Positions 5,980 through 25,099 of a stretch of 27,545 bases of DNA are shown here, piece by piece; the first letter of the stretch is position 1; each line of letters opens with the position of its first letter. The translations under genes and the position numbers were made by a program. Source of the DNA: a virus; the IMG/VR virus record IMGVR_UViG_3300006754_000120, positions 1-27,545 of that record; one strand, 5' to 3'. The notes under the pieces were generated by a model. It saw only the letters and a list, made by a program, of their open reading frames with translations. It made no database searches and was not told the DNA's origin.

Positions 5980-5992
5980 ACTAGGAGAGATA

Positions 5993-7594: not shown

Positions 7595-7616
7595 TATTGA
7601 TTAAGGAATTGTTAAA

Positions 7617-9257
7617 ATGGCAAAATATATAGCACCAGAAGTTAAGGATATAAGTAGCAGCTTATCTTTAGAAGATACGATAAGAGCATTGGCTGATAGT
7701 GCTTTGACAGGCCTTGAGCATTATGCTAAATTAAAGGGTGCTGAAAATAGGTTTGATGTTAATGTTAACCTAAAATCATTAAATGCATCAGTAAAAGATT
7801 TAAAATGGACAACTTCAACTCCAGAAGACTTCGAGAATGCTCTTACAGCTGTTGATAACCTTATTAGTCCTGAGAGTATGAAAGGCCTGAATAATAGTAC
7901 TAAAGAAACTATATCAAGTGCTGCCACCATATATAAGTCTAAGATTGAAAAAGAGCAAGCCTTAAGAAGTCAAGCAGATGTTGCAGAAGCTGATTTAAAT
8001 ATATTGCTAAATAAATTAGACAGCTTGGGTAACAGTGCGTTAGGTAATAGTGAGTATGATACTGTAGAAGCTCTAGAGGTTCTTGAACAAATTAGACTAG
8101 CTAAGCAGCATAATATCAAAGAGATATCAAACTATTTAGATAAGCAAGCGTCAGAAAAACTTCTTCAAGGTAATAATGAACTAGCCACAAGAAACCTATT
8201 GCAATCAATAGATATGGATAGCACAAAGGAGGGTATTTCTCTAGAAGTATCTTCAGACCTAGCTAATTATTATAAAAAAGCTTTTGACTATCTTAACATG
8301 GAACAGACATCATTTGACAAGGAGACAGGAATGACTACCTTCAATGTGAAGGAAAATGATGAGCTGGCTACATGGAATGCATGGATGCTTGGGGATGACC
8401 CAAAAACAGCGAAGATTGAGAAGGGCTTATTTGGCACTGCAAAAGATGCATTTGATAAGTACCAAACTGCACAAGAAGAATTTAGCGAAGATATAAGCCA
8501 ATTCGATACAGGTGAAATAATAGGTATGGTAGACGAGGGTATCAATGCAAAATCATTAGGCTCAACTGAGCAAATTACATCTAAGAAGATAATTGATTAT
8601 TACTTTAGTGGGCAAGCGCCAGATAAGAATATGGATTATTATGAGTCAGAGTTAGGAGCTTACAATGCAGCAATGCATTTAAAGAATCAATTCCTTGAAG
8701 GAGATACTCCAGCTGATAGAGATATTAATGATGAGATGATAAAATATAGAAGTGACTTATACAAAAAAGGTGTTACCTCATTCGAGGCTCAAGAGGCTAA
8801 CGAAGCCCTCAAGAACGATGCTATTAATCGTGTTAATCGTGTGTATAGCGCTATTGGAATTTCTAAAATAGATGAGAAGTCTGAAGAGTTTTCACCCACA
8901 ATGGCTAAGGATATTAAAATAAATCTTGGTGAAGCTATGTATACGAATATAGATTGGGGTACTGGTGGGTCCGAAACAGAGCATATACCAAAAATAGAAG
9001 AGTTAAGAAAGGCTATGATTACAGGGAAAAATACTGATATAATCATGGAGCAACTTGTAGATGAATACCTTGATAGAGATGGAAGAGAGCTTAATAAAGA
9101 AAAAGTAATGCGTGCATTTGAAGTAATTGGTGAGATTGGCAATAAGCCAGAAATGATGGAAGCGGTAACTAGGTTCTACAATATATTAAGGGCTTTCGAT
9201 TCTACTGAAATGGTCTATCCATCAAGCGCAGATACAAACGATTCTTTTGCAGAATAG
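7617..9257 (+). CDS. Helical candidate internal virion protein (546 aa)
   Basis: This 546-aa protein appears almost wholly alpha-helical, acidic and free of cysteine, with long heptad-like runs of Leu, Lys, Glu and Asp and no membrane span or enzyme motif. It lies between the Cys-rich protein and the giant protein, where podoviruses keep internal-core/ejection proteins. AAGGA sits about 9 bases before ATG 7617. I infer a structural role inside the capsid or ejection conduit. No family is recognised. Confidence 0.55.
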   Translation: MAKYIAPEVKDISSSLSLEDTIRALADSALTGLEHYAKLKGAENRFDVNVNLKSLNASVKDLKWTTSTPEDFENALTAVDNLISPESMKGLNNSTKETISSAATIYKSKIEKEQALRSQADVAEADLNILLNKLDSLGNSALGNSEYDTVEALEVLEQIRLAKQHNIKEISNYLDKQASEKLLQGNNELATRNLLQSIDMDSTKEGISLEVSSDLANYYKKAFDYLNMEQTSFDKETGMTTFNVKENDELATWNAWMLGDDPKTAKIEKGLFGTAKDAFDKYQTAQEEFSEDISQFDTGEIIGMVDEGINAKSLGSTEQITSKKIIDYYFSGQAPDKNMDYYESELGAYNAAMHLKNQFLEGDTPADRDINDEMIKYRSDLYKKGVTSFEAQEANEALKNDAINRVNRVYSAIGISKIDEKSEEFSPTMAKDIKINLGEAMYTNIDWGTGGSETEHIPKIEELRKAMITGKNTDIIMEQLVDEYLDRDGRELNKEKVMRAFEVIGEIGNKPEMMEAVTRFYNILRAFDSTEMVYPSSADTNDSFAE

Positions 9258-9272: not shown

Positions 9273-12200
9273 ATGGCAACAAACCTTTCGTATGATGAGC
9301 AGATAGAAGCTTTATTAAATGCTGTCAATGACTATCAATCTCCCATTGATACATCTCCTCCTGTTGAAGTCGAGGATAAATATAACCTATCATGGGCTGA
9401 AGCTGCAGCTCAATTAAGAGGTATAGGCTATATACAGGAACATGACTGGACAGAAGAAGACTTTTCATTTATAGACCCTGTTACTAATGAGACATGGTAT
9501 AAAAATACCATTGCTAATGACAGACCTTTTTATAATCTCCTTGCTGAAAATATGGACAAGCCATTTGTCAGTAGACTATTTGATTCATCAGCGCCTTCAA
9601 TCCAAGGTCAAGATGATGAAGGAAATCTAGTTGATATAACTCACTTAATGGCATCATCTGATAATTTAGTATATCCTACAGTTGTTGCTAATCCCGATAA
9701 CCCATCCGAACTTATAGACCTTACAGATGTGGGGCTTGCTGGCCTCTGGGAAGGCATAGACCCTTATGACCATGCAATAAGTAGCGGCAATTATATTGAA
9801 TTTCCTGATGAGCGTAATGCTCGTGCATTTGGAGAACATTATAAGAACTTTATTCCTCCTAAGAAAGAGGAAGATAGAGTTAAGAATGGCTGGTCAAAAA
9901 AGAAGCCTATAGCTGTTACTGATGCGCAATTTGTAATGGGCTACCTCCAGCATAGAGAAGAAACTAATGGTGATGGCTGGGATAAATTAGAACGAATCAA
10001 TGAAGAGATTCCCATAGAAATTAGAGCGCATTTACCTGAAGGTCATAGACATTATTGGGAAGCTGGGTTAGGTGATATTGGTAAGCATGCGGCATGGAGC
10101 AAAATCTGGGGTGCAGCTTATGTTTTGCCTAGTGCAATAACAGGCCCTCTAGAGAGTATCTATTCTAAGAGTGAGGCTATCCTTGAAGCTGATTTCGGTA
10201 AGTTAGGAAGTGCAGTATATGATATAGCGATGGGTGAGAACCCTGATGAGATTCTCAATGGCTTTAAAGAGTGGAGAGCAGAAACAGGTAGAGTTGGTAA
10301 GGTGTTAGATGAAACTAGCAATACTATGGAATTAGTCCAAGACTATTTTGCTAAAAAGTCTGAGGCTGCATTTAAACAGCAAATGGATAACCCCAGATGG
10401 CAAGCATATAATGTCCATTTAGATAAAATTAGAGAAAAGAGTGTCCTCCCATGGAAAGATGACTTTATGGGTGTTGATGATTTTGGTACTTATTTATTAG
10501 ATGCAATGTCTTCTCAAGTTGCAACTTATGGAGCGGGGGCCGTAACCTTTGCAGCAACTAAAAGTATGCCTGCAACCTTAGCGGCAATAAGAGGCGGTGC
10601 ATTTATCATGGAAGGTACTGATGAATGGAGACAAGAGTATAGTCATTTCCGCGCTCAAGGTTTATCTCCACAAGAAGCTTCAGAAAGAGCATGGGTAGGA
10701 TATGTATTATATGGTACAGGCGCTGCTGCTATTGAAGGATGGGGTGCTAAACAATGGCTATCACCTAATGCCAGAGCATTACTGGAGAATGATAAAAAGA
10801 TTTTATGGGATAAAGTTAAGAATGTCGTAAGAAAGGTTCCGAAGACAGATAAGATTGGGAAAGTATTCCCTTCTGCTCCTAAGCGTGGTGCAGGTAAGTG
10901 GGCTACAGACTTAGGTAAGATGTCAGTAATAAGACCAGTAGCAGAATACATCACCGAGGGAAGTCAAAGATTATTTCAAGGTGTAGTGCAAGAAAGATAT
11001 ACTGATGTTAACTGGTCAGAAGCTTATGATGAAGCTAAGGAAGAGGCTAGAGCAGGTGCAGTATCCGCATTGTTTATGGGTGCTGGTGTAGATGTAACAA
11101 CTGGTTTATATGAAGCAACAACTGGTTATTCTGCCTATAAAGTGAAAAAAGAAAAGTCTCAATTCGACAGAAAGGTAAGCGAAGCTGAAGAAGCTGAGAT
11201 AGTAGATGAGAAGACTGAAGGTAAGCAGCCACATGAAGTAGTAGCGATGGCTACCATAGATAAGTTTATGGAGGGGGACAACTTTACCGAGGAGCAATTA
11301 GGTCCTGATGCATTTCAAAGATTAGAGAATCTCGACATAATAACAAGTCCTGATAATATATTAGATGCATTGAAACTTGGTGGTGAAGAAGCAATTATTG
11401 ATGCAGGTTATAGCGTTGAAGAAGTGCTTAATGAGATAGAATCTTACTATGGAGAATCTACCCCAGATATAAGGGCTAAAGCAGAATCGGCTATTAGAGG
11501 CAAGAAAACTCAAGATGAGGTTATACTACCAGGAGTAGAGGAATCTCCTGTTACAGGGCCTGTTACGGCTCCAGAACAGACCCAAGTTGCCCCTAAAGTT
11601 GTTATCCCAGGTGTACAAGTCGCTACTGCAGACGATTTTGATGTTGATACAACTGAAGATGAAGGAGTCGAAGAAGAGGTAGAAACAGCCCCTGTAATAA
11701 TTCCAGGAGTGACTGTAGCTACTGCTGATGATTTTTTTATTGATGATGAAGATGTTCCTACTGAAGTGCCAACGGGAGAAGCTCCAGTTGAAGGAAAGAA
11801 ACAATCACTTGTCGGACTAACACCATTGAAAAAGGAAGAAGCAATAAAAGATGCGTTTCCAATAAATCGTTCCAGTAAAAGTATAACTCAAATTAAAAAT
11901 ATGATGAATAGTTTTATGAGAAGATATAATAGTTGGGTAGATGATGAGGGAGTAACTAGGGTAGAGCTTGATGATTTTATTGCTAATATTAAGCTTGAAG
12001 ATTTTGCATTGATGATACAATTAGCAAATTCAAAAGAATACATGGACTCTCCTAAACTTATTGGTTACCATAAACCTTTGAATGCAGAGTTTCACAATCT
12101 GGTACTGAAGTTAGATGAGTTTACGATTCCTACTCAAAAAGAAGCTCCAGTTGAAGATACTAGAATTGCTAGGTTTGAAGAAAACTTTAAAGCATTATGG

Positions 12201-15200
12201 GGAGTAGAAGAAAGACCTGCGTTAGATGATATTATTAAGTTTGAGGGTAAAAATTATAAGATTATAGATGTTAAAGATGCAAGTGATGTAATGATACAGC
12301 AGATGCAAGATAATATTTTAGCTGGCCAAGAAGAAGGTATTTCAGGCATTGAAGATATAATGTCTAAAGAAGAATTTGAACAAACTGGGCTGTATCAATT
12401 ATTTAGCTTAGAAGAAGTTGAATTTAAAGGGAATTTAACATTTCCTGTTGGTGGAGACACAGTATTAATAGATGTTCCTATTAATGAACTTGTTGATAAA
12501 GGATTTACATTTAAGCCAGAAGGAGTTGAAGTACAACCTCCAGTTGCTGGCTATGACTTACAGCAAAGAGATATTGAGACTCAAAATAAACTTGAAGATG
12601 TTCCATTACCTCGTGGTTATAAGCATTATAAAGTTGCAATGGCAGATGTCCCCTTAGAAGGAGACAAGAGACCTAAGCTAGTTGCAGGTAAACCTATTAA
12701 ACTTAAAGGTTCTAAGAGAGAGTTTTTCTTATACAAGGATAAGGAAGAATATAAGGTAGTAGATTCTCGGACTGGAACATTCTTAGGTAGCTGGAGAGGG
12801 ACACAAAAAGATGCCATTGAGATAGCGCAAAGAAATTTAGATAAGGCCATTAAAAGTGGTGTATATAAAGATGCTATAGTTAGTACAGAGAGAAAACTAG
12901 CCTCTAGACCTCAGTATCAAACTATAGGTCAAGCAATAGGTGACTTACTAGATGAACAGGATTCAGGCTTTCCATTAATATCAGATGCTGATGAGCAATT
13001 TCAAAAGATTATAACTAAGCTTAAGAAAGATTTCCCAGATGTAATTACATTAGTAGTTGAGAATCTATATGATGACCATGGGATTGAAGTTGCAGGGATT
13101 GCATTTGAAAGTTTAGTTGCATGGTCTAATAGTAAGGCTACTTTAGATACTGCCCCTCACGAATACTTCCATGTATTATTTAATGCATTAAAGCATGTTG
13201 CTGAGATAGATGGCAACACTCAAGTGAAGGAACTTATTGATGGTGGGCTTAAAGAATTTGGCTGGAATGAAGAAGAGTTAGTACAAAAAGTTGCAGAGCT
13301 ATATACTGAAAAGGTTTTAACTGACAATGAAGGTGTTGTTGATAAATCATTAACAGCTAGACTTAAGACTTGGCTCCGTAAGGTATGGAATGCAATAAAG
13401 AAAGCCTTCGGCAAGAAGATAAAAGGTAAGACCTATGCTGAGCAATTAGCAGATATATTCTTTAATGCTACTGATAAATATGTAGATGTTGAAGATGTCA
13501 GGGTTAGTATCCCTGTATCTCAGCTAGTTCGTGATGCAAAGGCAAGATATGCGGGTGCAGGTTTTGCAGACCCTTTTAATCTTGAGAGTGAAGCACAATA
13601 CAATAAGCATGCTATAGGTCGAGTTCTTGCAATGCAAAGACTTGCTAGGCTCTCAGCTGTAGATTATAGCGTTAGGCCTTTACAGGAACTTGATAAGAAA
13701 TTTAATGTAAAGAAATATGCAAAGGGTATTAAAATTGACTCTGACCTTATTAGGGCTATTACTAAGAGATTGTCTGGTAGAGAATATCAGTTAATTAATA
13801 AGATAGTAACTGATAATGGCTTGATGGGTGAGAAGATGAGCATTGAAGATTTCAAAGCTATTGTTCTCTCATATTACTTCCCACTTAGAATACAAAGAGG
13901 GATGGCTAAGGATGAAGCTATTTCTCAAATGTACACATCCTTTGCATTGGACGATTTTAATAATGACTATGGGGAATGGAGCTTTAAGGTTCCTATTACT
14001 GTTAGAGAATCTCATCCGTGGTTTACGAAGTCAGATAATAATACTATTGGTTGGTTTAGAGGAGATAGTAACCCAGAGAATACTAAAGAATTTAGATTAC
14101 AAGAATTGCAATCTGATACATTCCAAAGAGATTTAGGTAAAGGGAACCAGCAATTAGCTATTCTAGGTCAAAAAGTTAGCAAAGAAGACCTTGCTATTCA
14201 AAATGACTTCCTTAAGAATATTGGACATGGCTCTTGGGAGAAGTTCTTATTTAATTCAGTAATGCAATTTCTTAATGACAATAACTATTCAAGTGTGTTG
14301 ATACCTTATGGCAATACAGTTAAAGAGATACAAAACTTTGATAAGATTGAAGAGAAATTAGAATCCTTACCTGCTGAGATTGAAGCTCAAGAATCTCTTG
14401 TTGATAAACTAGACGCGTCTCCTGAATATATTAAAGCCTTAAAAGAATTTAAAGCATTAGCTCCTAAAATCAAGAAGTTATTTAATGACAATAAGCTAGC
14501 AAGTATAATTGCTGAAAATGAAGGTGAACCTACTGTATGGACTTTTAATCAAATAGATGGCAGTAGCTGGAGTGTACAATGGCATTATGAGCCAGTAGAA
14601 CCTACAAGTAAAAAAGAGATTGCGAATGACAAACAGCTTTGGGATGACATTATATCAAACCCTTATAATTATGAATTTAAGTCTGTAGCTGGAATGGAAA
14701 CTTATTTACATAAAACGAAAGATAAAAATAAGACTGTTCGTAGATGGAGTGAGTTGAATAGTCCAGGGCAGGCAGGGCATGATGCATACTGGGATGCTAA
14801 TAGAGAACATACAAAACTAGATAAACTTAAGGATGATTTAGGTCATTATGTAAGGGCTAAAGGTTCAGTAGATAGGATTATACATAGATATGATATGTTT
14901 AAGAAGTTTATCTTAAAGAATCGTAAAGGATATGCTGAATTATATACTGATGATAAGGGAAGAAAATGGGTTAAAACATGGTTAACTGAAAAGGATGCTC
15001 TTGCTGTGCCAATGTATCAACAGTTAAAGAATGATACAGAGGCTTGGGATAAGGCTATGATACTTATCGATGGTGCTTATAGAGAGATGAGTAACGATGC
15101 TAAGGCATTAGGAAAGAAACTTCCATTGGGTGACTTTGTAAGGGTTATGAATGATGAACTACCTGACAGAGCATCTGATGTATTTAATGCATGGCTAAGA

Positions 15201-18200
15201 TTAAGGTTCCCTAATGGTCGTAATAGATTAATGTCTCAGACAGTTGAAGGTCCAGATGGAAGATTTATGTCTGAAGGAGACTTTGCTAAGAGCTTTGCTG
15301 GGGTATATAATGACTTTGAGGATGGGTTGTCTAAGATTGAATCCGATGACTATCTAATGTCTGCTAAGCATGGTGAAAGTGTCGAGAAAGTTTTCTTATC
15401 TGAGATAGGTGCTCAAATGAGCATTGAGGGATTTGCTAAATTTATGAATGCCGCTATCGATGCTGACTATAAAGATTGGTCAACCAATGAACTTCCAAGG
15501 CATGCACTTATTAGTTTTAATGCATTAACTCCTAAGCAGCAGCTTAATCTTAAAAGACTGTATGTGCGTGCAAATAGTGTAGTTACAGCGAATCAAGGTA
15601 AGGTTATGAATGTAAGAAACAACCTTATCTATAACGAATCTCTTATTGGTGGCTTGCAATTAAAGGGGCCAGTAAATCCATTCAATGAAGAGACAAGCTC
15701 AATGCGTGAGCCTAAGATGATTTATGAGATTGCTAATCCTGATATGAAGTCTCGATTACTTTGGTTGAATAAAACTGATATGTTTATTACCACGAATAGA
15801 GACCCTCTTGATATCTTCGGGACTAAGGACCGTACCTTTATCAAGGGAGCTCCTTATACTTTAGAAGAATGGGATGATTTTGAAGATAGATTAAATAAGT
15901 TTGTATATGAAGAGGATGATGTCTTTGGATTAGTGCCTTTATTCTCAAGGTCAGAGAAGGGCAAACTTGCATTTGCCGCTATTAGTAAGAAGCAATTAAA
16001 GATTGCATCAGACCCTAGGATTCTAAAGGCTTACTGGTCAGCAGAAATCAAGGCTTTTAAGGAGTCTAATGACTCCGTTGAAGATATTAAAGCATTCAAA
16101 GCTCAAATAAACAACTTCAATGGCTATAGAGAGGGCGAACAGAAGTTTAAGGACCCTCAGTGGCTTGCAGGAGAAATCGCTCGCTATGAGGCCTATAAAG
16201 AGCTCATGCCATTAAACATGATATCTGATGGTGCTAACTTCTTTAAGAGAATAGCTATTGTAACAACCCCTGTATTCACCTCTCCTTTAATGGAAGATAT
16301 AACAGGAGCTTACTTTGATTTTAATAATATAACATTTGTAGATAAGAATGGTGTTGAGCAGAAAGCTGTTGATATAGTCCCTGGATTTAAAGATAAAATG
16401 TCATATAGTGATGGAACTACTCTTATTGGAGCAAATACTTTTAACTTAGCTAGCAATGCATTTGGATTAGACAGAAGTAGGAAGATTATTAAGACTATCG
16501 TATGGAAATCTGATAAGTCTCTTGCAATGAAACATGAAATGCAATTACCCCCAGCAGGACTCAAGTTATATGAGGGATATGGTACTAAAGCACAGAAGCT
16601 TGTAGCTGAAGTTCGTAGTGATAATAACTTGTATGTTGGAGATAAGATTGTTAATATGATTTTCTCTGATGATGAAGCTAAGATATTTACAGGGAAGTCT
16701 GGTGATATAGTAACAGTAAGGGCTAATGAAATTGGGTTAATTAATTATGCATCAAAGCATGGCTCTGCTAAGTATCCAATACAATCTCTGAACTTTGTTG
16801 ATAATGAAGAAGTCCTCAGTAGCTTTAATGAGAATGTCTTACCTAGAATTAGAGAAAGACTAGGTAGAATGCTCCTACTTACAGGGCATCCAAAGGATAA
16901 TGCAGAAAGAATTTATGGTTGGTTAAAGACTCTTCGCTCTGATGATATTATGGCTCCATCTAATGTACTAGTAGAAAAGAATAAGGCTGCTAGATTAGGC
17001 ATGCATTCAGATAATGAGCCTATGTTAAATGTATTAATGAAGACTCAGTTAATTGAAGGTGCGCTGCAGGCTGACTTTACTGAAGGTGTTCAGTTGCACT
17101 CTGCTCCTGACTGGACTGATGTTGTGCCTGAAGGTTCTGTCTCTATTGCATTGGAAGATGCTAGAGCTGTATTAAAGCCTTACGCTCAGGCTAAAGGGTT
17201 AGATTTAAAAGTTATTGGTAAAGATTATCTAAAGAAAATCAATCAATGGTTGATTAATAATCCTATATATGTACGAGTATCTCGCTCACCTGTTGTTGGT
17301 ATAAATGGAGCTTACCCTGCAAGGGTTTCTGAGCTTCACGATAGAGGTGGTCAGATTTTATTAAATACAAGTCAAGGATATAAGAATCTTGAATTTGACT
17401 TTGATGGAGATACTATTCAATTAGATGTTATAGATGAAGCTGAGTATCTTGCATTGAATGAAATGTTAGATAAGGCATTAAAAGATGGTCGCGTACAAGC
17501 TATTGATTTAAATAAATATGAAAATGATGCTGCAACCTATTCAGATTTATCTAAGAGAGAAAATGCATATGTATTAGCTGAGAAGTTTGGTACAGGGGCT
17601 AGAGCCATTGGAGAGATATCTAATGTTCAGGCTGTACATGGGATGCTACAACATACATTTGGTTACATGGAAGTTACAAATGATGATGGTTCAGTAGAAT
17701 ATATCCATGTTAAAAAATATCAGCATAAAGAATTATTTGAAGAAGGTGGTCTAAATGAAGTAATGACTATTGAAACTCAAATAAGAACATGGCAGCAGGC
17801 AGCACTTGATAATGGTAAGTATTTATTGCTTGATGCTTGGGAATATAGTCAAGAGAAACTATTTAGAAAGTTATTTACTGTTACTAGTTTAGTTGATGGC
17901 AAATTAATAAGTGCTCATTCTTTGAATGATGCTCAATGGGATGCTATGAAGCCTCTAGTAGATATGTATAAAATTCCAGGTCGCATTCGTAATGGGGGTA
18001 CATTTAATGAACAATATAGAATGGATACACAATTAATAGAGAGCCAAAGATATCTTGAATTTACAAAAGATAGAGAAGGTTATTATAGACGAGTATTATA
18101 TAGCCCTGAGAATCAACCTAAAGATGCTGGCATTGCTGTTCCTGGTGAAGAAGTTTCAGGTCCAGTTACTGTAGGGAGACTTCAATTTAGGGATGCTAAA

Positions 18201-19157
18201 GCTCCAATAGAATCTGTGGCTACTGCCTTAGCTGAAGTTTGGGAGCCAATACAGTTGAATGAACCTGAAAGAATTACTCCTGCAAGATTTATACCATTAG
18301 TGTATAAGTCTGTACACCAACAAGCTATGAAGTTATTAGATGAGTCTAAAGAAAATGCAGTAGACACTTGGTTGGCTATGGACTTTACTAAAGCTGATAT
18401 GATTAAGCACGGTATGGAAGGACATGAGTATGCGCAAGAACTACATAATGCACTTGTAACTGCACTTGTTCCTCAGACAAAGAAAGGGACTGCTGTTGAT
18501 ATTAAATGGGCACAACATTCTATATCTGCTATAGCTTCTGGCAGGAAGACTAAGACTACAAGGACCAAAGAACTCCCTGTTGGTGGTACATTCCAAATTA
18601 ATGGTGTTGAATATATTATAACTGCAGTTGAACAGAAGTCTTTAGCTCAAGTTATTGCACATGATTATAGGGATGAGGGTTATAATACTCCTAAAGAATT
18701 AGAGAGTGCATTAAAGAATCTTGGACTTAAGATGGATATGGGTCGTAAATTAAATGTGCATACTTTTAAAGAATATAAGGAAGATGATATTGGCGGTGAG
18801 TTTGCTGGATATGTTGGTCCTCAATCTTGGGGAAGGAATCCTGTGTTACAGAAATTTCAATTAGAATTTGAAGAGAAATTTGCTAACTTGCATCCAATAG
18901 CACAAGAGGTTGCTACCTATTCTTTCTTAGAAGGGCTGCCAAGCATTAATGATAAGATGGAGCAAGTAAGAGGGAATAATAGAAATGTATTGCCTCCATT
19001 CTCTAATAAGAAGACTACATTAGATGCAACTATTATGGCTAATTACTCTATGAAGTATAATGATATAATTAACGATAGAGAGAAACGATTAGAAGAGCCA
19101 TCTCATTTCTCTAACCTTACAACATTTAAGAATATTATTAGAAGGGCGTGTCCATGA
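9273..19157 (+). CDS. Giant polyvalent virion protein with candidate two-barrel RNA polymerase domain
   Basis: This 3294-aa protein is the centre of the window. Modules in order: a YPTVV...IEFPDERNARAFGEHYK module (about 131-190) common in phage internal proteins; Ala/Gly-rich hydrophobic stretches (about 410-450, 473-493, 585-620) that may enter a membrane; an acidic linker with a repeated IPGV-ATADDF motif (750-821); an HExxH metallopeptidase-like module (H1296-E-Y-F-H1300, E1342 as possible third ligand); an ELQSD module (1611-1615); a candidate RNA polymerase (about 2280-2910) with DFDGD at 2709-2713; and an ASCH domain (3077-3168). The size and mix match large polyvalent proteins packaged and injected by phages, as with N4 and crAss-like virion RNA polymerases. 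AAGGA precedes ATG 9273. The last four bases overlap the next gene (ATGA). Domain calls vary in strength; the ORF is certain. Confidence 0.9.
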   Translation: MATNLSYDEQIEALLNAVNDYQSPIDTSPPVEVEDKYNLSWAEAAAQLRGIGYIQEHDWTEEDFSFIDPVTNETWYKNTIANDRPFYNLLAENMDKPFVSRLFDSSAPSIQGQDDEGNLVDITHLMASSDNLVYPTVVANPDNPSELIDLTDVGLAGLWEGIDPYDHAISSGNYIEFPDERNARAFGEHYKNFIPPKKEEDRVKNGWSKKKPIAVTDAQFVMGYLQHREETNGDGWDKLERINEEIPIEIRAHLPEGHRHYWEAGLGDIGKHAAWSKIWGAAYVLPSAITGPLESIYSKSEAILEADFGKLGSAVYDIAMGENPDEILNGFKEWRAETGRVGKVLDETSNTMELVQDYFAKKSEAAFKQQMDNPRWQAYNVHLDKIREKSVLPWKDDFMGVDDFGTYLLDAMSSQVATYGAGAVTFAATKSMPATLAAIRGGAFIMEGTDEWRQEYSHFRAQGLSPQEASERAWVGYVLYGTGAAAIEGWGAKQWLSPNARALLENDKKILWDKVKNVVRKVPKTDKIGKVFPSAPKRGAGKWATDLGKMSVIRPVAEYITEGSQRLFQGVVQERYTDVNWSEAYDEAKEEARAGAVSALFMGAGVDVTTGLYEATTGYSAYKVKKEKSQFDRKVSEAEEAEIVDEKTEGKQPHEVVAMATIDKFMEGDNFTEEQLGPDAFQRLENLDIITSPDNILDALKLGGEEAIIDAGYSVEEVLNEIESYYGESTPDIRAKAESAIRGKKTQDEVILPGVEESPVTGPVTAPEQTQVAPKVVIPGVQVATADDFDVDTTEDEGVEEEVETAPVIIPGVTVATADDFFIDDEDVPTEVPTGEAPVEGKKQSLVGLTPLKKEEAIKDAFPINRSSKSITQIKNMMNSFMRRYNSWVDDEGVTRVELDDFIANIKLEDFALMIQLANSKEYMDSPKLIGYHKPLNAEFHNLVLKLDEFTIPTQKEAPVEDTRIARFEENFKALWGVEERPALDDIIKFEGKNYKIIDVKDASDVMIQQMQDNILAGQEEGISGIEDIMSKEEFEQTGLYQLFSLEEVEFKGNLTFPVGGDTVLIDVPINELVDKGFTFKPEGVEVQPPVAGYDLQQRDIETQNKLEDVPLPRGYKHYKVAMADVPLEGDKRPKLVAGKPIKLKGSKREFFLYKDKEEYKVVDSRTGTFLGSWRGTQKDAIEIAQRNLDKAIKSGVYKDAIVSTERKLASRPQYQTIGQAIGDLLDEQDSGFPLISDADEQFQKIITKLKKDFPDVITLVVENLYDDHGIEVAGIAFESLVAWSNSKATLDTAPHEYFHVLFNALKHVAEIDGNTQVKELIDGGLKEFGWNEEELVQKVAELYTEKVLTDNEGVVDKSLTARLKTWLRKVWNAIKKAFGKKIKGKTYAEQLADIFFNATDKYVDVEDVRVSIPVSQLVRDAKARYAGAGFADPFNLESEAQYNKHAIGRVLAMQRLARLSAVDYSVRPLQELDKKFNVKKYAKGIKIDSDLIRAITKRLSGREYQLINKIVTDNGLMGEKMSIEDFKAIVLSYYFPLRIQRGMAKDEAISQMYTSFALDDFNNDYGEWSFKVPITVRESHPWFTKSDNNTIGWFRGDSNPENTKEFRLQELQSDTFQRDLGKGNQQLAILGQKVSKEDLAIQNDFLKNIGHGSWEKFLFNSVMQFLNDNNYSSVLIPYGNTVKEIQNFDKIEEKLESLPAEIEAQESLVDKLDASPEYIKALKEFKALAPKIKKLFNDNKLASIIAENEGEPTVWTFNQIDGSSWSVQWHYEPVEPTSKKEIANDKQLWDDIISNPYNYEFKSVAGMETYLHKTKDKNKTVRRWSELNSPGQAGHDAYWDANREHTKLDKLKDDLGHYVRAKGSVDRIIHRYDMFKKFILKNRKGYAELYTDDKGRKWVKTWLTEKDALAVPMYQQLKNDTEAWDKAMILIDGAYREMSNDAKALGKKLPLGDFVRVMNDELPDRASDVFNAWLRLRFPNGRNRLMSQTVEGPDGRFMSEGDFAKSFAGVYNDFEDGLSKIESDDYLMSAKHGESVEKVFLSEIGAQMSIEGFAKFMNAAIDADYKDWSTNELPRHALISFNALTPKQQLNLKRLYVRANSVVTANQGKVMNVRNNLIYNESLIGGLQLKGPVNPFNEETSSMREPKMIYEIANPDMKSRLLWLNKTDMFITTNRDPLDIFGTKDRTFIKGAPYTLEEWDDFEDRLNKFVYEEDDVFGLVPLFSRSEKGKLAFAAISKKQLKIASDPRILKAYWSAEIKAFKESNDSVEDIKAFKAQINNFNGYREGEQKFKDPQWLAGEIARYEAYKELMPLNMISDGANFFKRIAIVTTPVFTSPLMEDITGAYFDFNNITFVDKNGVEQKAVDIVPGFKDKMSYSDGTTLIGANTFNLASNAFGLDRSRKIIKTIVWKSDKSLAMKHEMQLPPAGLKLYEGYGTKAQKLVAEVRSDNNLYVGDKIVNMIFSDDEAKIFTGKSGDIVTVRANEIGLINYASKHGSAKYPIQSLNFVDNEEVLSSFNENVLPRIRERLGRMLLLTGHPKDNAERIYGWLKTLRSDDIMAPSNVLVEKNKAARLGMHSDNEPMLNVLMKTQLIEGALQADFTEGVQLHSAPDWTDVVPEGSVSIALEDARAVLKPYAQAKGLDLKVIGKDYLKKINQWLINNPIYVRVSRSPVVGINGAYPARVSELHDRGGQILLNTSQGYKNLEFDFDGDTIQLDVIDEAEYLALNEMLDKALKDGRVQAIDLNKYENDAATYSDLSKRENAYVLAEKFGTGARAIGEISNVQAVHGMLQHTFGYMEVTNDDGSVEYIHVKKYQHKELFEEGGLNEVMTIETQIRTWQQAALDNGKYLLLDAWEYSQEKLFRKLFTVTSLVDGKLISAHSLNDAQWDAMKPLVDMYKIPGRIRNGGTFNEQYRMDTQLIESQRYLEFTKDREGYYRRVLYSPENQPKDAGIAVPGEEVSGPVTVGRLQFRDAKAPIESVATALAEVWEPIQLNEPERITPARFIPLVYKSVHQQAMKLLDESKENAVDTWLAMDFTKADMIKHGMEGHEYAQELHNALVTALVPQTKKGTAVDIKWAQHSISAIASGRKTKTTRTKELPVGGTFQINGVEYIITAVEQKSLAQVIAHDYRDEGYNTPKELESALKNLGLKMDMGRKLNVHTFKEYKEDDIGGEFAGYVGPQSWGRNPVLQKFQLEFEEKFANLHPIAQEVATYSFLEGLPSINDKMEQVRGNNRNVLPPFSNKKTTLDATIMANYSMKYNDIINDREKRLEEPSHFSNLTTFKNIIRRACP
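11598..11743 (+). repeat. Short duplicated motif in an acidic linker of the giant protein
   Basis: Residues 776-789 (VVIPGVQVATADDF) and 808-821 (VIIPGVTVATADDF) match at 11 of 14 positions, 32 residues apart; a partial third copy (VILPGV) is at 750-755. They lie in an Asp/Glu/Pro-rich linker, so they may be short binding or processing motifs rather than a folded domain. Confidence 0.75.
13056..13410 (+). other. HExxH metallopeptidase-like module within the giant protein
   Basis: Residues about 1262-1379. HEYFH at 1296-1300 follows a threonine-containing turn (ATLDTAP), as in zinc peptidase-type modules of phage and conjugative-element polyvalent proteins. In that family, HExxH supplies two zinc ligands and the catalytic Glu, and a Glu on a later helix is the third ligand; E1342 in ELVQKVAELYTE is a good candidate. 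A basic helix with Trp follows (about 1365-1390). Possible roles are self-processing of the giant protein or attack on host proteins after injection. Confidence 0.65.
13980..14330 (+). other. ELQSD module of phage polyvalent proteins
   Basis: Residues about 1570-1686. GWFRGD is followed by LQELQSDTFQ (Glu1611-Leu-Gln-Ser-Asp1615) and later by a helix and strand ending SSVLIPYGNT. This order (GW-F-R, ELQSD, a helix, then a strand with PxGxT) recurs in large phage and mobile-element polyvalent proteins. I recall the pattern but not its biochemical function. Confidence 0.5.
16122..17990 (+). other. Candidate single-chain double-psi beta-barrel RNA polymerase domain
   Basis: Residues about 2284-2906. 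Landmarks in order: SDG at 2379-2381; lysine-rich strands (K2404, K2407, K2412, K2415, K2420); SKHGSAKYP at 2494-2502, loosely like the lysine-bearing segment of an RNAP beta barrel; an R-S-P strand about 38 residues before the key motif, as the R-A-P strand precedes NADFDGD in RNAP beta-prime; EFDFDGDTIQLDV with D2709, D2711 and D2713 as the metal-chelating triad; IGEISN at 2779-2784; and QAALDNGKY at 2842-2850, matching the D-x-x-K helix seen after the active site in single-chain family members. Known members are QDE-1-type polymerases, YonO and the crAss-like virion RNAP. Catalytic activity is inferred. Confidence 0.72.
18501..18776 (+). other. ASCH (PUA-like) domain at the C-terminus of the giant protein
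   Basis: Residues 3077-3168. The signature is IASGRKTKTTRTKELPVGGT at 3087-3106, followed by the strands of TFQINGVEYIITAVEQKSL, a YRDEGYNTPKELESAL helix, and a closing VHTFKEY strand. This order matches stand-alone bacterial ASCH proteins, whose SGxKTxTxR segment lines a cleft that binds RNA or modified nucleosides. Attached just after a candidate RNA polymerase, it could bind transcripts, the promoter strand or nucleotides. Confidence 0.8.
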
Positions 19158-22100
19158 GCAAGTGTAGTACACAAGATATGATAGAAATGATGAGAACTCT
19201 AAGGAGCGTTGAGTCTGATGAAAACTATCAAAGAGTTAAGGCTGTCTTTAGTAATGCTGAGGAAACTGAAAAGAGATTAGATGCGAAGATAACTGAATGG
19301 GAAAATAATAATCCATTCTATGAAGAGATTTCTGACGAAGACTGGGTTAAGATGTATGGCGATGAAACTGAAAGAGCTTCATTAGCTGATAAGCTTTGGA
19401 CAATTCTAGGAGATAACCCTCATATAGCAGAGTTAATAGAGCAGGAAATGATATATGACCTAGCTAGACCTGAAGCTAACTATCCTATAGGTATGGTTGA
19501 ATGGGCTGATAATGGTAAAGACATTAAATTGAATTATGGTAAGGTTCCTAAGGATAGTCTAAAGAAATGGATTTTAAAAGCTAATGGATGGGCTAAGGCA
19601 AAAGGCGAGAAAATGAATCGTGGGTTTTATAAGAAGACTTCTTTAGCTCATGGCTTACCACAGAATATTAAATATGATGACCCTACTGCAGGGTATGCTA
19701 TTATGGCTGAGGCGAAAGATACACATGCAGATGGAATTGGGTTTAGAATATCTCAGTATATGCATGATGATGGTAAACGCGGTTATGGAATGCAGGATAT
19801 TTATGATAATTTATCTAAGCTATTTGAGAATATATCAGAAGAAGGCAGAAGGAATTGGGGGGCAAAGAATAATATAAAGTCTGAAGATACAGGTACTCCT
19901 ATAAGACAATGGATTACTGAATTATTTACAATGGCAATGCATGGGCAGGCTATATTTGTCTCTGAAAGTATGGCTGCAGAAGATAACCAATTTAATGAAG
20001 CTGGCACTTATATCTTTACTCAAAGAGCTCCTACAGGTAAACAATTTGATAATGGCGATGCTATATTTCATTGGCAAAAGCCTATTAAGTTAGAAGACTA
20101 TAATCCTGAAATTCACGGTAGTCCAGGTAATAAGTTAGTGTTTAAAGACGCTAAAGGTAGAGAGCGACATGACCTTATGGAGTTCTTTAAACTTAATGTA
20201 CCTCTTAATAAAGCTAGGATGGAAAAGTTTCAGAAGAGCTTAGAAGATGCTCGTGAAATTGATAATGAGGTTGCTAAAAAAATAGTTGAGATAACTAAGA
20301 TTTCATATAATAAGATAATTAAAGAAATACAAAATTGGTTTCCTAGTTTAGATAGTGGCCTTATTTATAATATGTTTACTCTTGATGAAGAAGTGGAAAC
20401 TATACAGCAATTCTTAGATAGAAGTGTATCCTCAGAAGAATTAAGAAACAACACTCTTAATACATATAACTATCTTCAAAACAACTTCACCCAGTATTCA
20501 TTAAGCGAGCCATTCTTCTTTAATGGGGATACATTGCAGTACAAAGAGAATCACTGGCCTGCATTGTTTGATGCATTTTATGCTGTAATGTTAAAGGATA
20601 GCATCTCAGATTTAGAGTCAGAAATGGATAGAGTAAGAATAGCAAAGAATCAAGCAAAGGGTTCACAGAAAATTGCATTTAGAAAAACTCTTGAAGGCTT
20701 AAAATCTAGCCATAAAAAATCAATGGACACTTTTACAAGGTTAATAGAGGATGATAATGTAGATAATATAGGTCGTCAGATTGCTACAAGAAGGTCATCT
20801 AAATATGCTAAGCATATCAGTAATGCATTTGATATGTTAAATATGCGTAAAGATGGAGATGTTTATAGAGATTATCTTAAACAAGTTATGACTACACCAG
20901 CAACTAATAATTTAACTGAAAGACTATTGGTTGCATTAAGAACTTCAAAGGATTATTCTGGAGTACAAGATGCTATTGTTGCATTATATAAAAGAACTCT
21001 TGGGCACAAGGATGCAAGAAGTCAAGTGTTCGGGTTTGAGACAGCTGATGAGAATTGGAGTCCAGCAGCATTATCTGTTATTCGTTCCTTTAATAACTGG
21101 AGCACTATGAAGCTTGGAGGTGTAGGCTCTCCTATTACCAATTTAGCTGGCCATATACAAAAAATGATTCATGGCGGCAGAGATGCTATGATTAAAGCTA
21201 GACAAGATTATGTGAAATTAAAAGATAATGATGCATTTAAAAGATTAATTGCGGATTCAGGTGTTGTTGAATTTGAAGAGTTTTATGGAGCATCTATAAT
21301 TGAAGACTTGGAGGCTTTAGAGCTTAAGAAAGATGCAATCAATAAATTAATGGCAGCTACTTTAGGATATTGGAAAGAGGTTAGTGAAGGAGGGAATAGG
21401 CGTACAGCTGAGGCTAAACTTAAGAAGTTTTTCTTAGAGACATTTAAACAAGAGATGAACTTCGATGCTATTTATTCACCAGAAGAAGCTAAGAAGATGT
21501 CTAAGAAGTTGAAGCAGGAAAAAAGAATTGCTCAAACATCTAAGTTGGTTAATTTTGCGATTAATAGGGAATATAATCAATCTCAAGCATTAAAAGATGT
21601 GTCATGGGCTTCTATTGATGCGGGCAAAAAGGGGGCTACTTTAATATTGGATAAGCTTGCAAAAGTTTTATCAGCCTTGCCTACAATGTCACAAACTGAG
21701 AAAGAACTTAGAATGAGCTCAGTTATTATGGCTTATGATTCATTAAAGAAATTTAATCTTGTAGTTAATCCAATAGATGAGCTTGCTGATAATGAGAGAG
21801 CTTTGGTTATTAAGTGGGGTCGTATTTATACAAGGCAGTTTTTAGATTTTGGAATGTCAAGTAGTGATGCAGGTGAGGTATTTGGCGCCCAAATAGGCAA
21901 GCTAATGAGTAAGTTTTCTATATGGAAGCAGCAGAAATATATTAAAGATTCAACTATGTTTACTGATGCTATGAGGACTCAAAGAGATGATGACAAACTT
22001 ATGTCTGTTATAAACTCATGGTTTAAAGTTTGGCTTAAAGGGATACCTCTTCCTGGCAGGATTAAAGGACAGAAATTTACTCGAACAACTAATGTGGATA

Positions 22101-22588
22101 TGGCAATGGTTAGGTCTTTCTTATGGAGTCAGGGATTAGTGCAGGGAATATTAGATGTAGGAATGATTGCACTTGAATTAATAGGCTTTACTGCATTAAG
22201 GCAGGGAGCAAGTGCTTTATTTATAGCAGCAGGAATACGAAAAGGGAATCCTTTGGGCTCTTCGTATATGGCTTTTAGGCTTTTACCATTTGCTATTGCA
22301 ATGCAAATGATGGCAGGGAATTTAGATGATGAAGATGATTGGCTTAAAATGCTGAAATATTATATAAGACATATTCCAATTACAGGATTAGGCTTTTCAA
22401 TGCTTTCTGAACTATCATTGTCATTATCGGCTGGGGCTTATGGAGATGTGAAAATTGCAACCGAAGGAATTAAGGATGCAATTAAGACAATGCTACCTGT
22501 ATCGCAGGGAGTAGCTTCACCATTAGTTGATGCAGCAGGTAAATTAATTGAACCTGATAAGAAGAAGAAAAAGTCTAAGTATCGTTAA
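19154..22588 (+). CDS. Second giant virion-type protein with C-terminal membrane segments
   Basis: This protein of about 1144 aa starts at ATG 19154, inside the previous stop (ATGA); a GTG at 19148 is a less likely start. The N-terminal two thirds are soluble and helical. From about residue 640 it resembles the C-terminal regions of phage large polyvalent proteins: MKLGGVGSPITNLAG at 652-666, then long helices, then hydrophobic stretches at about 985-1028, 1036-1058 and 1075-1100 that may span or enter a membrane. It ends in a very basic tail (KKKKKSKYR). By analogy with N4 and T7, a partner protein that forms the passage through the cell envelope for the DNA and the giant polymerase protein is plausible. 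No catalytic motif is recognised. Its stop overlaps the opposite-strand stop by four bases. Confidence 0.75.
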   Translation: MSKCSTQDMIEMMRTLRSVESDENYQRVKAVFSNAEETEKRLDAKITEWENNNPFYEEISDEDWVKMYGDETERASLADKLWTILGDNPHIAELIEQEMIYDLARPEANYPIGMVEWADNGKDIKLNYGKVPKDSLKKWILKANGWAKAKGEKMNRGFYKKTSLAHGLPQNIKYDDPTAGYAIMAEAKDTHADGIGFRISQYMHDDGKRGYGMQDIYDNLSKLFENISEEGRRNWGAKNNIKSEDTGTPIRQWITELFTMAMHGQAIFVSESMAAEDNQFNEAGTYIFTQRAPTGKQFDNGDAIFHWQKPIKLEDYNPEIHGSPGNKLVFKDAKGRERHDLMEFFKLNVPLNKARMEKFQKSLEDAREIDNEVAKKIVEITKISYNKIIKEIQNWFPSLDSGLIYNMFTLDEEVETIQQFLDRSVSSEELRNNTLNTYNYLQNNFTQYSLSEPFFFNGDTLQYKENHWPALFDAFYAVMLKDSISDLESEMDRVRIAKNQAKGSQKIAFRKTLEGLKSSHKKSMDTFTRLIEDDNVDNIGRQIATRRSSKYAKHISNAFDMLNMRKDGDVYRDYLKQVMTTPATNNLTERLLVALRTSKDYSGVQDAIVALYKRTLGHKDARSQVFGFETADENWSPAALSVIRSFNNWSTMKLGGVGSPITNLAGHIQKMIHGGRDAMIKARQDYVKLKDNDAFKRLIADSGVVEFEEFYGASIIEDLEALELKKDAINKLMAATLGYWKEVSEGGNRRTAEAKLKKFFLETFKQEMNFDAIYSPEEAKKMSKKLKQEKRIAQTSKLVNFAINREYNQSQALKDVSWASIDAGKKGATLILDKLAKVLSALPTMSQTEKELRMSSVIMAYDSLKKFNLVVNPIDELADNERALVIKWGRIYTRQFLDFGMSSSDAGEVFGAQIGKLMSKFSIWKQQKYIKDSTMFTDAMRTQRDDDKLMSVINSWFKVWLKGIPLPGRIKGQKFTRTTNVDMAMVRSFLWSQGLVQGILDVGMIALELIGFTALRQGASALFIAAGIRKGNPLGSSYMAFRLLPFAIAMQMMAGNLDDEDDWLKMLKYYIRHIPITGLGFSMLSELSLSLSAGAYGDVKIATEGIKDAIKTMLPVSQGVASPLVDAAGKLIEPDKKKKKSKYR

Positions 22589-22758
22589 GACTTATTAACT
22601 ATATAGGGGCTTTGCATTAGAGCGTCTGCAGTTTTTGAATCACCTCTTTTTATAGCTGATTCTATTTGCTGAGCAACTACCATTGCATTAGACCAAAAAT
22701 AATCTTGTGTTTCAGTCGGCTTCTTTTCTATCGGGGTTTCTAGTTTTGCTTTGAACAA
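22585..22758 (-). CDS. Short overlapping ORF at the end of the early operon (57 aa)
   Basis: The frame runs from TTG 22758 (or from ATG 22683, giving 32 aa) to TAA 22587-22585. The translation looks protein-like (ETQDYFWSNAMVVAQQI, then IESAIKRGDSKTADALM) and fills the otherwise empty interval before the convergent giant gene. The TTG start overlaps the upstream nuclease gene by 47 bases, and no clear ribosome-binding site is visible for either start. The frame is +1 relative to the nuclease gene, so a frameshifted extension of that protein is an alternative. Function unknown. Confidence 0.4.
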   Translation of the reverse strand: MFKAKLETPIEKKPTETQDYFWSNAMVVAQQIESAIKRGDSKTADALMQSPYIVNKS

Positions 22759-23086
22759 GTTCTATCCATTCGTTTAAAGGGACAGCCACATATGGCTTAG
22801 TCCCATTCTTTTTAATAACAAGTGCAGGGACACATTCTTCTTTAATGTTAGCTTCTGTCTGTCGGACACAAGCCCAGAAATTAAGTTTTTCTACATTTTT
22901 ACATTCAATACTGTAAGGGATAAGCTTTCGAGCAGCTGGTGATAGGACTATATCCTCACCATTAACACCCATGATTTGACTTTTAATGTCATCATCATGT
23001 AAGAAAGGGAATGCCTGTCGTAGTTCATCCCTTACAAAGTTTTGAAGTCTTCTTCCTTTAGCCTTAGAGGACCTAGGATTAGCCAT
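22712..23086 (-). CDS. PD-(D/E)XK nuclease-like protein (124 aa)
   Basis: The 124-aa protein starts with basic residues and KGRRLQNFVRDELRQAFP, typical of short phage PD-(D/E)XK nucleases. The candidate active site is D45 (GED) followed by E61-C-K63 (IECKN), then a helix with NFWACVRQTE and a strand plus KPYVAVPLNEW ending. This spacing suits a Holliday-junction-resolvase-like or other restriction-fold endonuclease cutting DNA during recombination or host-DNA breakdown. Its ATG overlaps the stop of the 70-aa gene upstream (TAATG). The fold assignment is fairly good; substrate is unknown. Confidence 0.7.
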   Translation of the reverse strand: MANPRSSKAKGRRLQNFVRDELRQAFPFLHDDDIKSQIMGVNGEDIVLSPAARKLIPYSIECKNVEKLNFWACVRQTEANIKEECVPALVIKKNGTKPYVAVPLNEWIELVQSKTRNPDRKEAD

Positions 23087-23298
23087 TAGATATCTTTCTG
23101 TATGTTTTTAAACAGATTTGGTTCTTCTCTCTTAGCACATTTATCACATATTTCTTTAGAAGTGACATTATCAGTAAGGCTCCGTATAGCTGGGTGAGGG
23201 AATTTAATTTCATAAACACTCCTCCTCCTAATCCAGCTCTTATAACAAAGGTGACATATTGAATTGTATTTCTCTCCTAGATACTTTAAGCGCTCCAT
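23086..23298 (-). CDS. Small zinc-finger-like protein (70 aa)
   Basis: Two Cys pairs, C15-x2-C18 and C51-x2-C54, frame a basic central segment (SWIRRRSV), a layout that would bind one zinc ion. Small proteins with two CxxC knuckles are frequent in phage early operons and often bind nucleic acid or host proteins, but no specific family is recognised here. It is coupled to the downstream nuclease gene by TAATG. Confidence 0.65.
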   Translation of the reverse strand: MERLKYLGEKYNSICHLCYKSWIRRRSVYEIKFPHPAIRSLTDNVTSKEICDKCAKREEPNLFKNIQKDI

Positions 23299-23322
23299 GC
23301 GGCCTGATAATATATAATGACT

Positions 23323-23547
23323 TTAATTACAAGCACAAGTATTATCATTGCGATTGCATTTTTTGCATCTATTATTATGACCTCCTTTGAAATCTAAGTC
23401 CCTTATAACTTCATCAAAGTCCAGCTTATTGTGGAAAAGTTGCCTTATTAAAAGTTCAAGTTTATACACATGATAGGTAAATGCAAATACTAGATACATC
23501 AGTATCACTAATATAATTACTATTACTAATTGTAAAGGGTCCATCAT
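23323..23547 (-). CDS. Small membrane protein with Cys-rich tail (74 aa)
   Basis: One strongly hydrophobic span (about 5-27, starting right after MMDP) is followed by a charged region and a cysteine cluster at the end (C61, C64, C71, C73). The likely topology is a membrane anchor with a small metal-binding or disulfide tail. GGAGG precedes the start region by about 11 bases; starts at 23547 and 23544 are equally possible. The first bases overlap the end of the 57-aa gene. Function unknown. Confidence 0.6.
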   Translation of the reverse strand: MMDPLQLVIVIILVILMYLVFAFTYHVYKLELLIRQLFHNKLDFDEVIRDLDFKGGHNNRCKKCNRNDNTCACN

Positions 23548-23717
23548 TGTTCAAATACCTCCGATATTTTAAAATGCATCTCTTGCATTATGGTTAAGTA
23601 CTTTAAATACAGTCGCTTATAGTTATCTCTATCTACTTGTAATTCCATAAGTTTATCTTTTAAACAATATAGACAGCCTGTGTCTATCTCTGTTTGATTA
23701 CAATATGAGCAATGCAT
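23544..23717 (-). CDS. Small zinc-finger-like protein (57 aa)
   Basis: ATG 23717 follows directly on the TAA of the upstream nuclease-like gene, and the frame ends at TGA overlapping the next start. The 57-aa product has C3-x2-C6 and C15-x2-C18 knuckles (MHCSYC, GCLYC) followed by a charged helix (LMELQVDRDNYKRLYLKY), the layout of a zinc knuckle plus coiled coil. It lies in what would otherwise be a 170-base gap. Function unknown. Confidence 0.65.
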   Translation of the reverse strand: MHCSYCNQTEIDTGCLYCLKDKLMELQVDRDNYKRLYLKYLTIMQEMHFKISEVFEQ

Positions 23718-24131
23718 TTAATTATCCTCTGTCATTTTAATTAAGCCATCAATAATAGCTCTTAAATTTAAAAGTACCATCTTAGAATCCATATTATCAC
23801 CTCCGTAAGTAGTTTTCTTATTAGGCATCTTATTGCATAACTCCTTTAATTTATCAACAGGAAACAATAAGGAACAGTATATTTCATCATTTTTAACAAG
23901 GTTATGTACCCATACATCTGATTCAGTTGCTCTTATACCACTTTTCTTTCCTTTAAATTCGTATTCAATAGCTATATTGCCTGTTGATGCCCATATATCT
24001 CTTTCAGTTTTTACCTCTACCTTGGTATTACCTGAGAATAATTTATCAATATACTTCTCCCATTTCTGGCCAAAGTTTAAATCAATATCAAATTTCTTTA
24101 ATTCTCTTATATCTGTTGATTCATTTATCAT
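23718..24131 (-). CDS. PD-(D/E)XK-like endonuclease (137 aa)
   Basis: The start is ATG 24131, with GGAGAG eight bases upstream and TAATG overlap with the upstream gene; a TTG at 24146 is less likely. The 137-aa protein has FGQKWEKYIDKLF, then KVEVKTERDIWASTGNIAIE and KKSGIRATESDVWVH. This series (Glu helix, E39-x-K41, TGN-x-A-x-E, SGI-x-T-x-SD-x-W) matches a short phage nuclease family with the restriction-enzyme fold. It probably cuts DNA, but the substrate is unknown. It is the second of three such proteins in this operon. Confidence 0.65.
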   Translation of the reverse strand: MINESTDIRELKKFDIDLNFGQKWEKYIDKLFSGNTKVEVKTERDIWASTGNIAIEYEFKGKKSGIRATESDVWVHNLVKNDEIYCSLLFPVDKLKELCNKMPNKKTTYGGDNMDSKMVLLNLRAIIDGLIKMTEDN

Positions 24132-24586
24132 TATATTTCTCTCCAAGGTATTATATAGTGTTCTTTATTGTTGTCTTCATAGCGCTGCTTTGGGTGTTTC
24201 TCGGCTATTTCTTTAAGCGAAGTATACATTATCTGTTTTAATACATTAAAGGTCGTAGAATAGGCGAATACACATATAGGAGCTACTTGTTCCCAGTTAT
24301 CATACTCTTCCATATCTTCAAGTTTTAAATGCAGTACATCTCTACATCCCTTAGATTCTATGAATACAAACTGTCCTTTAGTTACAGCACATGCGTCAGG
24401 CATATTCCTTAAGAACTTAGGAAACTTCCAGAATACCTCAGAAGGTATTTGGTCTTTCTTCTCATCGAAGCCTATACGCTTATAGTATGACTCTTTACCC
24501 TTAAAGTATTCATCTGTTTTAACTTGAGCTATGTCCACCCTATTAGTATTACGCTCTTTAAATGTTGATTCTGCATCTGTTTTCAT
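24131..24586 (-). CDS. PD-(D/E)XK-like nuclease (151 aa)
   Basis: The 151-aa protein contains a candidate restriction-fold active site: P63-D64 in FLRNMPDACAV, a strand, then E77-S-K79 in FVFIESKGC, followed by LKLEDMEEYDNW as the conserved helix. The sequence between D64 and E77 is twelve residues, normal for PD-(D/E)XK enzymes. It is coupled on both sides (ATGA with the 60-aa gene, TAATG with the next nuclease gene). The role could be recombination, replication-fork processing or host-genome degradation. Confidence 0.65.
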   Translation of the reverse strand: MKTDAESTFKERNTNRVDIAQVKTDEYFKGKESYYKRIGFDEKKDQIPSEVFWKFPKFLRNMPDACAVTKGQFVFIESKGCRDVLHLKLEDMEEYDNWEQVAPICVFAYSTTFNVLKQIMYTSLKEIAEKHPKQRYEDNNKEHYIIPWREI

Positions 24587-24765
24587 TTCTTTACCTCACA
24601 AAATAGTTTACACTCAGTACACATAGGTTTATTATTATATATTCTTATCTCAGCTGAGTGGCAATCACTTAAAGGTATAGGGTCTTTTATGAATGATATA
24701 TGAAAAAGTACAACTAATGTTGTTATGAATGTACATATCCATATTACGAATCCTAAATCTTTCAT
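24583..24765 (-). CDS. Small membrane protein with four cysteines (60 aa)
   Basis: An N-terminal membrane span (about 5-27) is followed by a short region with C35, C49, C52 and C56 (CTECKLFC). It might place a small metal-binding knuckle at the membrane, like the 74-aa protein farther along the operon. Start ATG 24765 overlaps the upstream stop (ATGA). No known family. Confidence 0.6.
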   Translation of the reverse strand: MKDLGFVIWICTFITTLVVLFHISFIKDPIPLSDCHSAEIRIYNNKPMCTECKLFCEVKK

Positions 24766-25007: not shown

Positions 25008-25020
25008 ATCATCCTTCTAT

Positions 25021-25090: not shown

Positions 25091-25099
25091 TTTAGGGAA

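Follow-up and report, generated by a model that had tools for sequence, protein, structure and literature searches.

Does the virus represented by IMG/VR record IMGVR_UViG_3300006754_000120 bring its own RNA polymerase (RNAP) into the cell that it infects? The question is raised by two giant open reading frames (ORFs), 9273–19157 and 19148–22588, which are present where the original prediction for this DNA had put them; it took the first for a giant injected polymerase and the second for a partner with membrane segments (here called P2). The window analysed here is the complete virus record, 27,545 bases in length. The first ORF encodes a protein of 3294 amino acids (AAs), and structural comparison of predicted models confirms that AAs 2600–2743 are the catalytic double-psi beta-barrel of a multisubunit-type RNAP. 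We assign a probability of roughly 0.78 to the reading in which the giant is a virion RNAP, carried as the C-terminal module of an ejection protein, that would enter the host together with P2 and transcribe the early genes there.

The catalytic barrel of the giant protein

Whole-protein searches with the two giants gave no Pfam, PHROG or PDB-sequence match, large pieces of both had no match in 50,697 phage records, and the genome contigs that were searched for their relatives contained none. Four other records and a near-identical fifth contain homologues of the first giant. A DNA pattern for EFDFDGDT led to G001 (47,974 bases), and profile searches led to G002 (57,687 bases), G003, G004 and the fifth record, a near-duplicate of G004. 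Discarded as relatives were L002 (46% over ~35 residues, a chance match) and L004 and L005 (two contigs with chance EFDFDGDT strings and no RNAP). The conservation of the giant ORF in the relatives excludes a chance origin. The G001 giant (2996 AAs) is 43% identical over its C-terminal 1399 columns, its middle being almost unalignable, and those of G002, G003 and G004 are about 25–28% identical to the window's over about 770–1150 columns. The polymerase part of the window's giant contains the following features:

15015–19154, + strand: RNA polymerase region, AAs 1915–3294; 43% identity to G001 and ~25–28% to G002, G003 and G004
16380–16712, + strand: candidate second barrel (DPBB-B), AAs ~2370–2480; D2380-G2381, K2404, K2407 and K2420 invariant in five sequences
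17070–17501, + strand: catalytic double-psi beta-barrel (DPBB-A), AAs 2600–2743; from AlphaFold2 models and their structural matches
17397–17411, + strand: DFDGD metal-binding motif, AAs 2709–2713; three Asp invariant in five sequences
17595–17813, + strand: post-barrel element GARAIGEISN...QQAALDN, AAs 2775–2847, a candidate bridge-helix region; invariant GEIxNxQ and QAA[LF]DN
18495–18767, + strand: segment at AAs ~3075–3165 that alignment shows to be missing from G002, G003 and G004

AlphaFold2 was run with the five sequences and two overlapping segments were modelled, of which the surroundings of DPBB-A, much of them predicted at a local confidence (pLDDT) of ~70–86, are the best-confidence part. 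All of the top 50 PDB structural matches of AAs 2600–2743 are RNAPs (50/50; Foldseek was also run against the PDB). The best is the non-virion RNAP (nvRNAP) of phage AR9, with a Z score of 14.0 and a root mean square deviation (rmsd) of 2.7 Å over 140 residues, and PhiKZ (Z 13.1) and E. coli beta' (Z ~13) are among the others; the two segment models match RNAP catalytic subunits, through the barrel alone, with Z scores of 12.5–14.0 and rmsd values of ~2.7–3.2 Å. In a search of viral predicted structures the top three matches are unnamed proteins (E-values 1e-22 to 1e-12, 15–26% identity) that are probably further members of the family, and the named matches that rank after them are mostly viral RNAPs. 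Unnamed relatives in UniProt include A0A516LSI3. The polymerase candidate of the original prediction is thus a genuine double-psi barrel RNAP module, having both the DPBB-A fold and the invariant Asp.

The metal-binding motif reads DFDGD in the window and G001, DYDHD in G002, DSDGD in G003 and DNDGD in G004. All three Asp are kept in each, and since they and several nearby residues are invariant at an overall identity of only ~25%, a selected catalytic site can be argued for; polymerase catalysis is inferred. We note that the His in place of Gly in the G002 motif is seemingly unusual for this fold. When a profile of the family was compared with 177,635 PDB sequences only two gave E-values below 10, both weak, 8h2n (E 0.55) and 8h2m (E 0.86); both are the tape-measure virion RNAP of phage P23-45, and the matched stretch is its catalytic motif. 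Direct alignment of the family with the P23-45 RNAP by hhalign gave an E-value of 0.0023 with 39% identity over 49 columns.

Outside DPBB-A, the pattern DG..K..K...K at AAs 2380–2420 suggests a second barrel at the place where DPBB-B is expected, and the GEIxNxQ...QAA[LF]DN element downstream of the catalytic barrel is a candidate for the bridge helix. The segment at AAs ~3075–3165 was likened by eye to an ASCH domain, presumably a loose resemblance, as Pfam gives it no support.

Modular organization and surroundings

The remainder of the giant and its neighbours are organized as follows:

9273–19157, + strand: giant ORF of 3294 AAs, composed of N-terminal module, linker, zincin, variable cassette and RNA polymerase; homologues in G001, G002, G003 and G004
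9273–11192, + strand: N-terminal Ala/Gly-rich module, AAs 1–640, a candidate ejection or membrane-association module from its conservation with G001 and its hydropathy
12885–13469, + strand: zincin-like metallopeptidase domain, AAs 1205–1399, with HEYFH at 1296–1300; 54% identity to G001
13470–15014, + strand: variable cassette, AAs 1400–1914; no aligned homologue in G001, no Pfam or PHROG match, and not common to the relatives
19154–22588, + strand: partner P2, ~1144 AAs, with C-terminal hydrophobic segments; directly 3' of the RNAP gene in all relatives
2361–5131, + strand: nozzle-like tail protein in two ORFs (2361–4487 and 4460–5131), from position and appearance
5344–9257, + strand: three genes for presumed ejection proteins of 211, 533 and 546 AAs, from position only
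22585–27545, − strand: early/replication operon downstream of P2, with PDDEXK nuclease, DUF932, Gp157/Gam-like and DnaB-type helicase genes; the proposed template

The start of the giant ORF at 9273 has a purine-rich region upstream and is conserved with G001. The N-terminal module is 43% identical to that of G001 at AAs 5–64 and 31% at AAs 244–837, and similar hydrophobic stretches are found in the N-terminal modules of the G003 and G004 giants. Across the family the N-terminal module, the RNAP and P2 are the constant parts, the exchangeable pieces lie between the N-terminus and the RNAP, and in a comparison of the window with G001 the RNAP region ranks with the best conserved parts of the giant. 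The zincin-like domain, for which Pfam gave no match in the window, is present in the window and G001, degenerate in G003 and G004 (HEFAE/HEYAE, 24% aligned identity) and absent from G002. The giants of G003 and G004 contain within them a superfamily 1 (SF1) helicase (L022:3943-5745 and L023:7466-9118; AAA_30, E 8e-22 and 3.5e-23, and UvrD_C_2). A cassette of ~130 AAs is shared by the G001 giant (AAs 1513–1635; L003:3562-3954) and the G004 giant (AAs 729–867) at 35% identity (E 4e-20); it follows the zincin in G001 and precedes the helicase in G004, as a mobile domain. AAs ~1600–1680 of the window's giant, with the string LQELQSD, were likened to a polyvalent-protein domain, a presumed likeness for which Pfam gives no support.

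The ORF for P2 was called as 19148–22588 (1146 AAs), and its start is probably the ATG at 19154 rather than the GTG at 19148, because the relatives open with MSKC or MSQC. Its hydropathy peaks at 1.66 at residue 996, and the four complete homologues, including that of the window, peak at 1.65–1.79. P2 adjoins the RNAP giant in all relatives examined (four records and the near-identical fifth), and the claim of a second giant as its neighbour is supported; a membrane role for P2 is plausible from its hydropathy.

The giant is the last but one gene of the structural strand, which is opposite to the strand of the replication genes. The block formed by the nozzle-like gene, the three late genes and the giant is syntenic in G001, as is the window along its full length, and the claimed place of the polymerase at the end of a nozzle and ejection series is borne out as to gene order; the labels nozzle and ejection themselves come from position, these genes having no significant Pfam or PHROGs match. 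The nozzle-like protein is split into two overlapping or adjacent ORFs in the window and G001 and is a single ORF in G003. Further upstream lie a lysozyme-like gene and a metallophosphoesterase gene (PHROG 221). G001 and G002 have in common the terminase, portal, scaffold-position, head, phosphoesterase and nozzle proteins, and the family is therefore a coherent phage lineage. The terminase, portal and head proteins of G001 belong to PHROG 38, 156 and 1328, the portal family being P22-type, and the nearest terminases of isolates are ~25% identical to those of the family. No other phage RNAP was recognised among the G001 genes scanned. The early region of G001 includes a peptide deformylase gene (L009:6771-7178; PHROG 2890, E 2e-27).

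No Rfam RNA was found in the window. A GC-rich hairpin with a 3-nucleotide loop (26064–26078, AGGGGC CTA GCCCCT on the + strand) lies between the Gp157-like and DUF932 genes, and G001 has a similar hairpin in the same place; it might act as a weak terminator or be a site of processing.

Comparison with known giant polymerases

Cellular-type virion RNAPs were previously known from crAss-like phages, jumbo phages and P23-45, and both the giant injected RNAP as a strategy and the double-psi barrel fold among virion RNAPs are known already. P23-45 gp96, whose catalytic motif is the nearest in sequence to that of the window's RNAP, is likewise a double-psi barrel RNAP with DFDGD in a giant virion protein, and it also has metallopeptidase and membrane domains. 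Its RNAP is N-terminal, in the tape measure of a long-tailed phage, whereas that of the window is C-terminal (AAs 1915–3294), with a zincin upstream, P2 beside it and, in G001, a P22-type portal. Fused to the tail tape measure, gp96 transcribes the pre-early genes, and it has been proposed to sit at a pore made by the tape measure (PMC10770324).

In crAss-like phages the RNAP is part of the virion and goes in along with the DNA (PMC7886860). Among these the RNAP of Cellulophaga phage phi14:2, gp66 (PDB 6VR4), resembles the window's giant as a single-chain giant whose gene closes the tail/ejection series in a phage with a short tail, with a giant neighbour (gp67, 1797 AAs) and an upstream phosphoesterase of PHROG 221. 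Its motif differs (DFDID), neither hmmsearch nor hhalign found a significant match between it and the RNAP of the window family, and the phi14:2 terminase, portal and head proteins are PHROG 6681, 6547 and 11589 rather than the 38, 156 and 1328 of G001. In the hhalign alignment, which is not significant, QQAALDNGK of the window falls on LNAFVDNAK of gp66. Membership of the Crassvirales was considered for the order of phosphoesterase, nozzle, ejection and giant RNAP genes, but the head and packaging genes led to its rejection. The original prediction had described the window as a third arrangement beside N4 and a DFDGD enzyme of crAss-like phages; this count does not hold, as P23-45 already adds a further arrangement (PMC10770324) and gp66 of phi14:2 reads DFDID in its record.

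The virion RNAP of phage N4 (Schitoviridae), gp50, is similar in being an ejected RNAP of ~3500 AAs with a membrane N-terminal domain that is delivered with other ejection proteins, but its polymerase fold is T7-like and unrelated to the double-psi barrel of the window. It is ejected with two other proteins, transcribes the early genes, and is thought to stay on the ejectosome through its N-terminal membrane domain (PMC12633501); a zincin-type metallopeptidase (MPTase) has been described in the N4 virion RNAP (PMC5512222). With their modular inserts the giants are built like the polyvalent proteins of phages (PMC5512222). Such proteins have several enzymatic or effector domains per chain beside virion genes, and the window's giant has a zincin and an RNAP, with an SF1 helicase added in relatives. 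Vibrio phage VvAW1 (NC_020488), whose portal is distantly similar, has a giant multi-domain "DarB-like" polyvalent protein right after an ejection gene; it differs in having an LPD38 domain (E 5e-44) and no DxDGD-type motif, and the LPD38 and MPTase-PolyVal Pfam domains found in VvAW1 had no match in the window or its relatives. The AR9 and PhiKZ nvRNAPs, of which the former matches the catalytic barrel best in structure, are multisubunit enzymes of jumbo phages with no fusion to ejection modules.

Probable delivery with the genome and its implications

The like layout of N4 gp50, phi14:2 gp66 and P23-45 gp96, which experiments have shown to be virion RNAPs, argues for an injected RNAP, as do the C-terminal polymerase, the hydrophobic N-terminal module, a gene position that closes the late structural series and the P2 gene that always adjoins. 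By analogy with these phages an injection programme is likely, and gene position and architecture suggest packaging in the particle and delivery from it. The giant would be packed in the capsid and, once the other ejection proteins had passed, threaded with P2 through the short tail. Its N-terminal module and the C-terminal hydrophobic segments of P2 would anchor it near the inner membrane, and transcription of the early minus-strand genes could start before the phage has made any protein. The zincin and the exchangeable cassettes would be accessory domains of the polyvalent-protein type.

Several results weigh against this reading. The Ala/Gly-rich hydrophobic stretches claimed for the first 620 residues are indeed present (residues 278–296, 421–439 and 594–612), but they peak at a 19-residue Kyte-Doolittle mean of 1.31, weaker than typical membrane helices, for which ~1.6 is the usual level. 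No shared early promoter motif emerged when relatives were searched, as the original prediction had suggested doing: intergenic regions of G001 yielded none, and those of G002 gave only AT-rich simple words; N4-type hairpins with 3-nucleotide loops show no excess over expectation in the window and G001. (Sigma-70-like sites number 64, against 73.7 expected.) The window itself stops short of the start of the early region. AlphaFold2 confidence is low overall (mean pLDDT 42 and 45 for the two segments) and DPBB-A alone is reliable; at DPBB-B the model is too poor to show the fold, and the bridge helix and trigger loop stand as candidates. Sequence likeness to known virion RNAPs spans only ~50 residues and falls short of significance when a whole database is searched.

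The giant might instead be a non-virion RNAP, made late and acting on the late genes in the infected cell, that owes its size to fusion with accessory domains. The same fold is shared by P23-45 gp64 and the AR9 and PhiKZ nvRNAPs, all of them non-virion enzymes, and it is AR9 that gives the best structural match, but phage RNAPs of the non-virion kind, gp64 (616 AAs) for example, lack a giant N-terminal module, and a position last but one on the structural strand, opposite the replication genes and always paired with P2, makes this explanation unlikely. Still less probable is a packaged polyvalent multi-effector protein whose RNAP-like module is degenerate or repurposed, for instance for priming, interference with the host RNAP or genome pulling that involves no productive transcription. 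The zincin and modular inserts would fit it, as would the polyvalent giant without an RNAP motif at the equivalent place in VvAW1, the DYDHD motif of G002 and the degenerate zincin motifs of G003 and G004; a degenerate module is hard to reconcile with three metal-binding Asp that are invariant across sequences ~25% identical, and with an RNAP region that is among the best conserved between the window and G001. That DFDGD is a chance string in an unrelated structural protein would accord with the EFDFDGDT seen in two contigs that have no RNAP, but this idea is refuted by the fold match at Z 14 and by the invariant Asp of the relatives, and we give it practically no credence.

Within the preferred reading of an injected RNAP, a more specific proposal is doubtful: the family would be a new injected one in which a single ejection protein unites a two-barrel RNAP with a membrane module and a peptidase, and in some members with an SF1 helicase as well. 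Helicase and polymerase together might then pull the genome into the cell during transcription, and host RNA polymerase would be dispensable at entry.

The open literature that was searched did not describe this lineage, an RNAP placed C-terminal to a zincin in a phage whose portal is P22-type, or the helicase fusion of the relatives. The window and its relatives appear to represent a further lineage with virion RNAPs, apparently without named or cultured members, of compact (records of ~48–58 kb), presumably short-tailed phages with P22-type heads. Because the proteins of this family match no curated family, injection of a phage's own RNAP is likely more widespread than annotation shows. Fusions of polymerase, zincin and, in some members, helicase, together with P2, would give a handle on how enzymes of this size pass through a tail and on whether genome entry is coupled to transcription, and a catalytic barrel nearest in sequence to that of the P23-45 tape-measure enzyme has implications for how single-chain two-barrel RNAPs arose.

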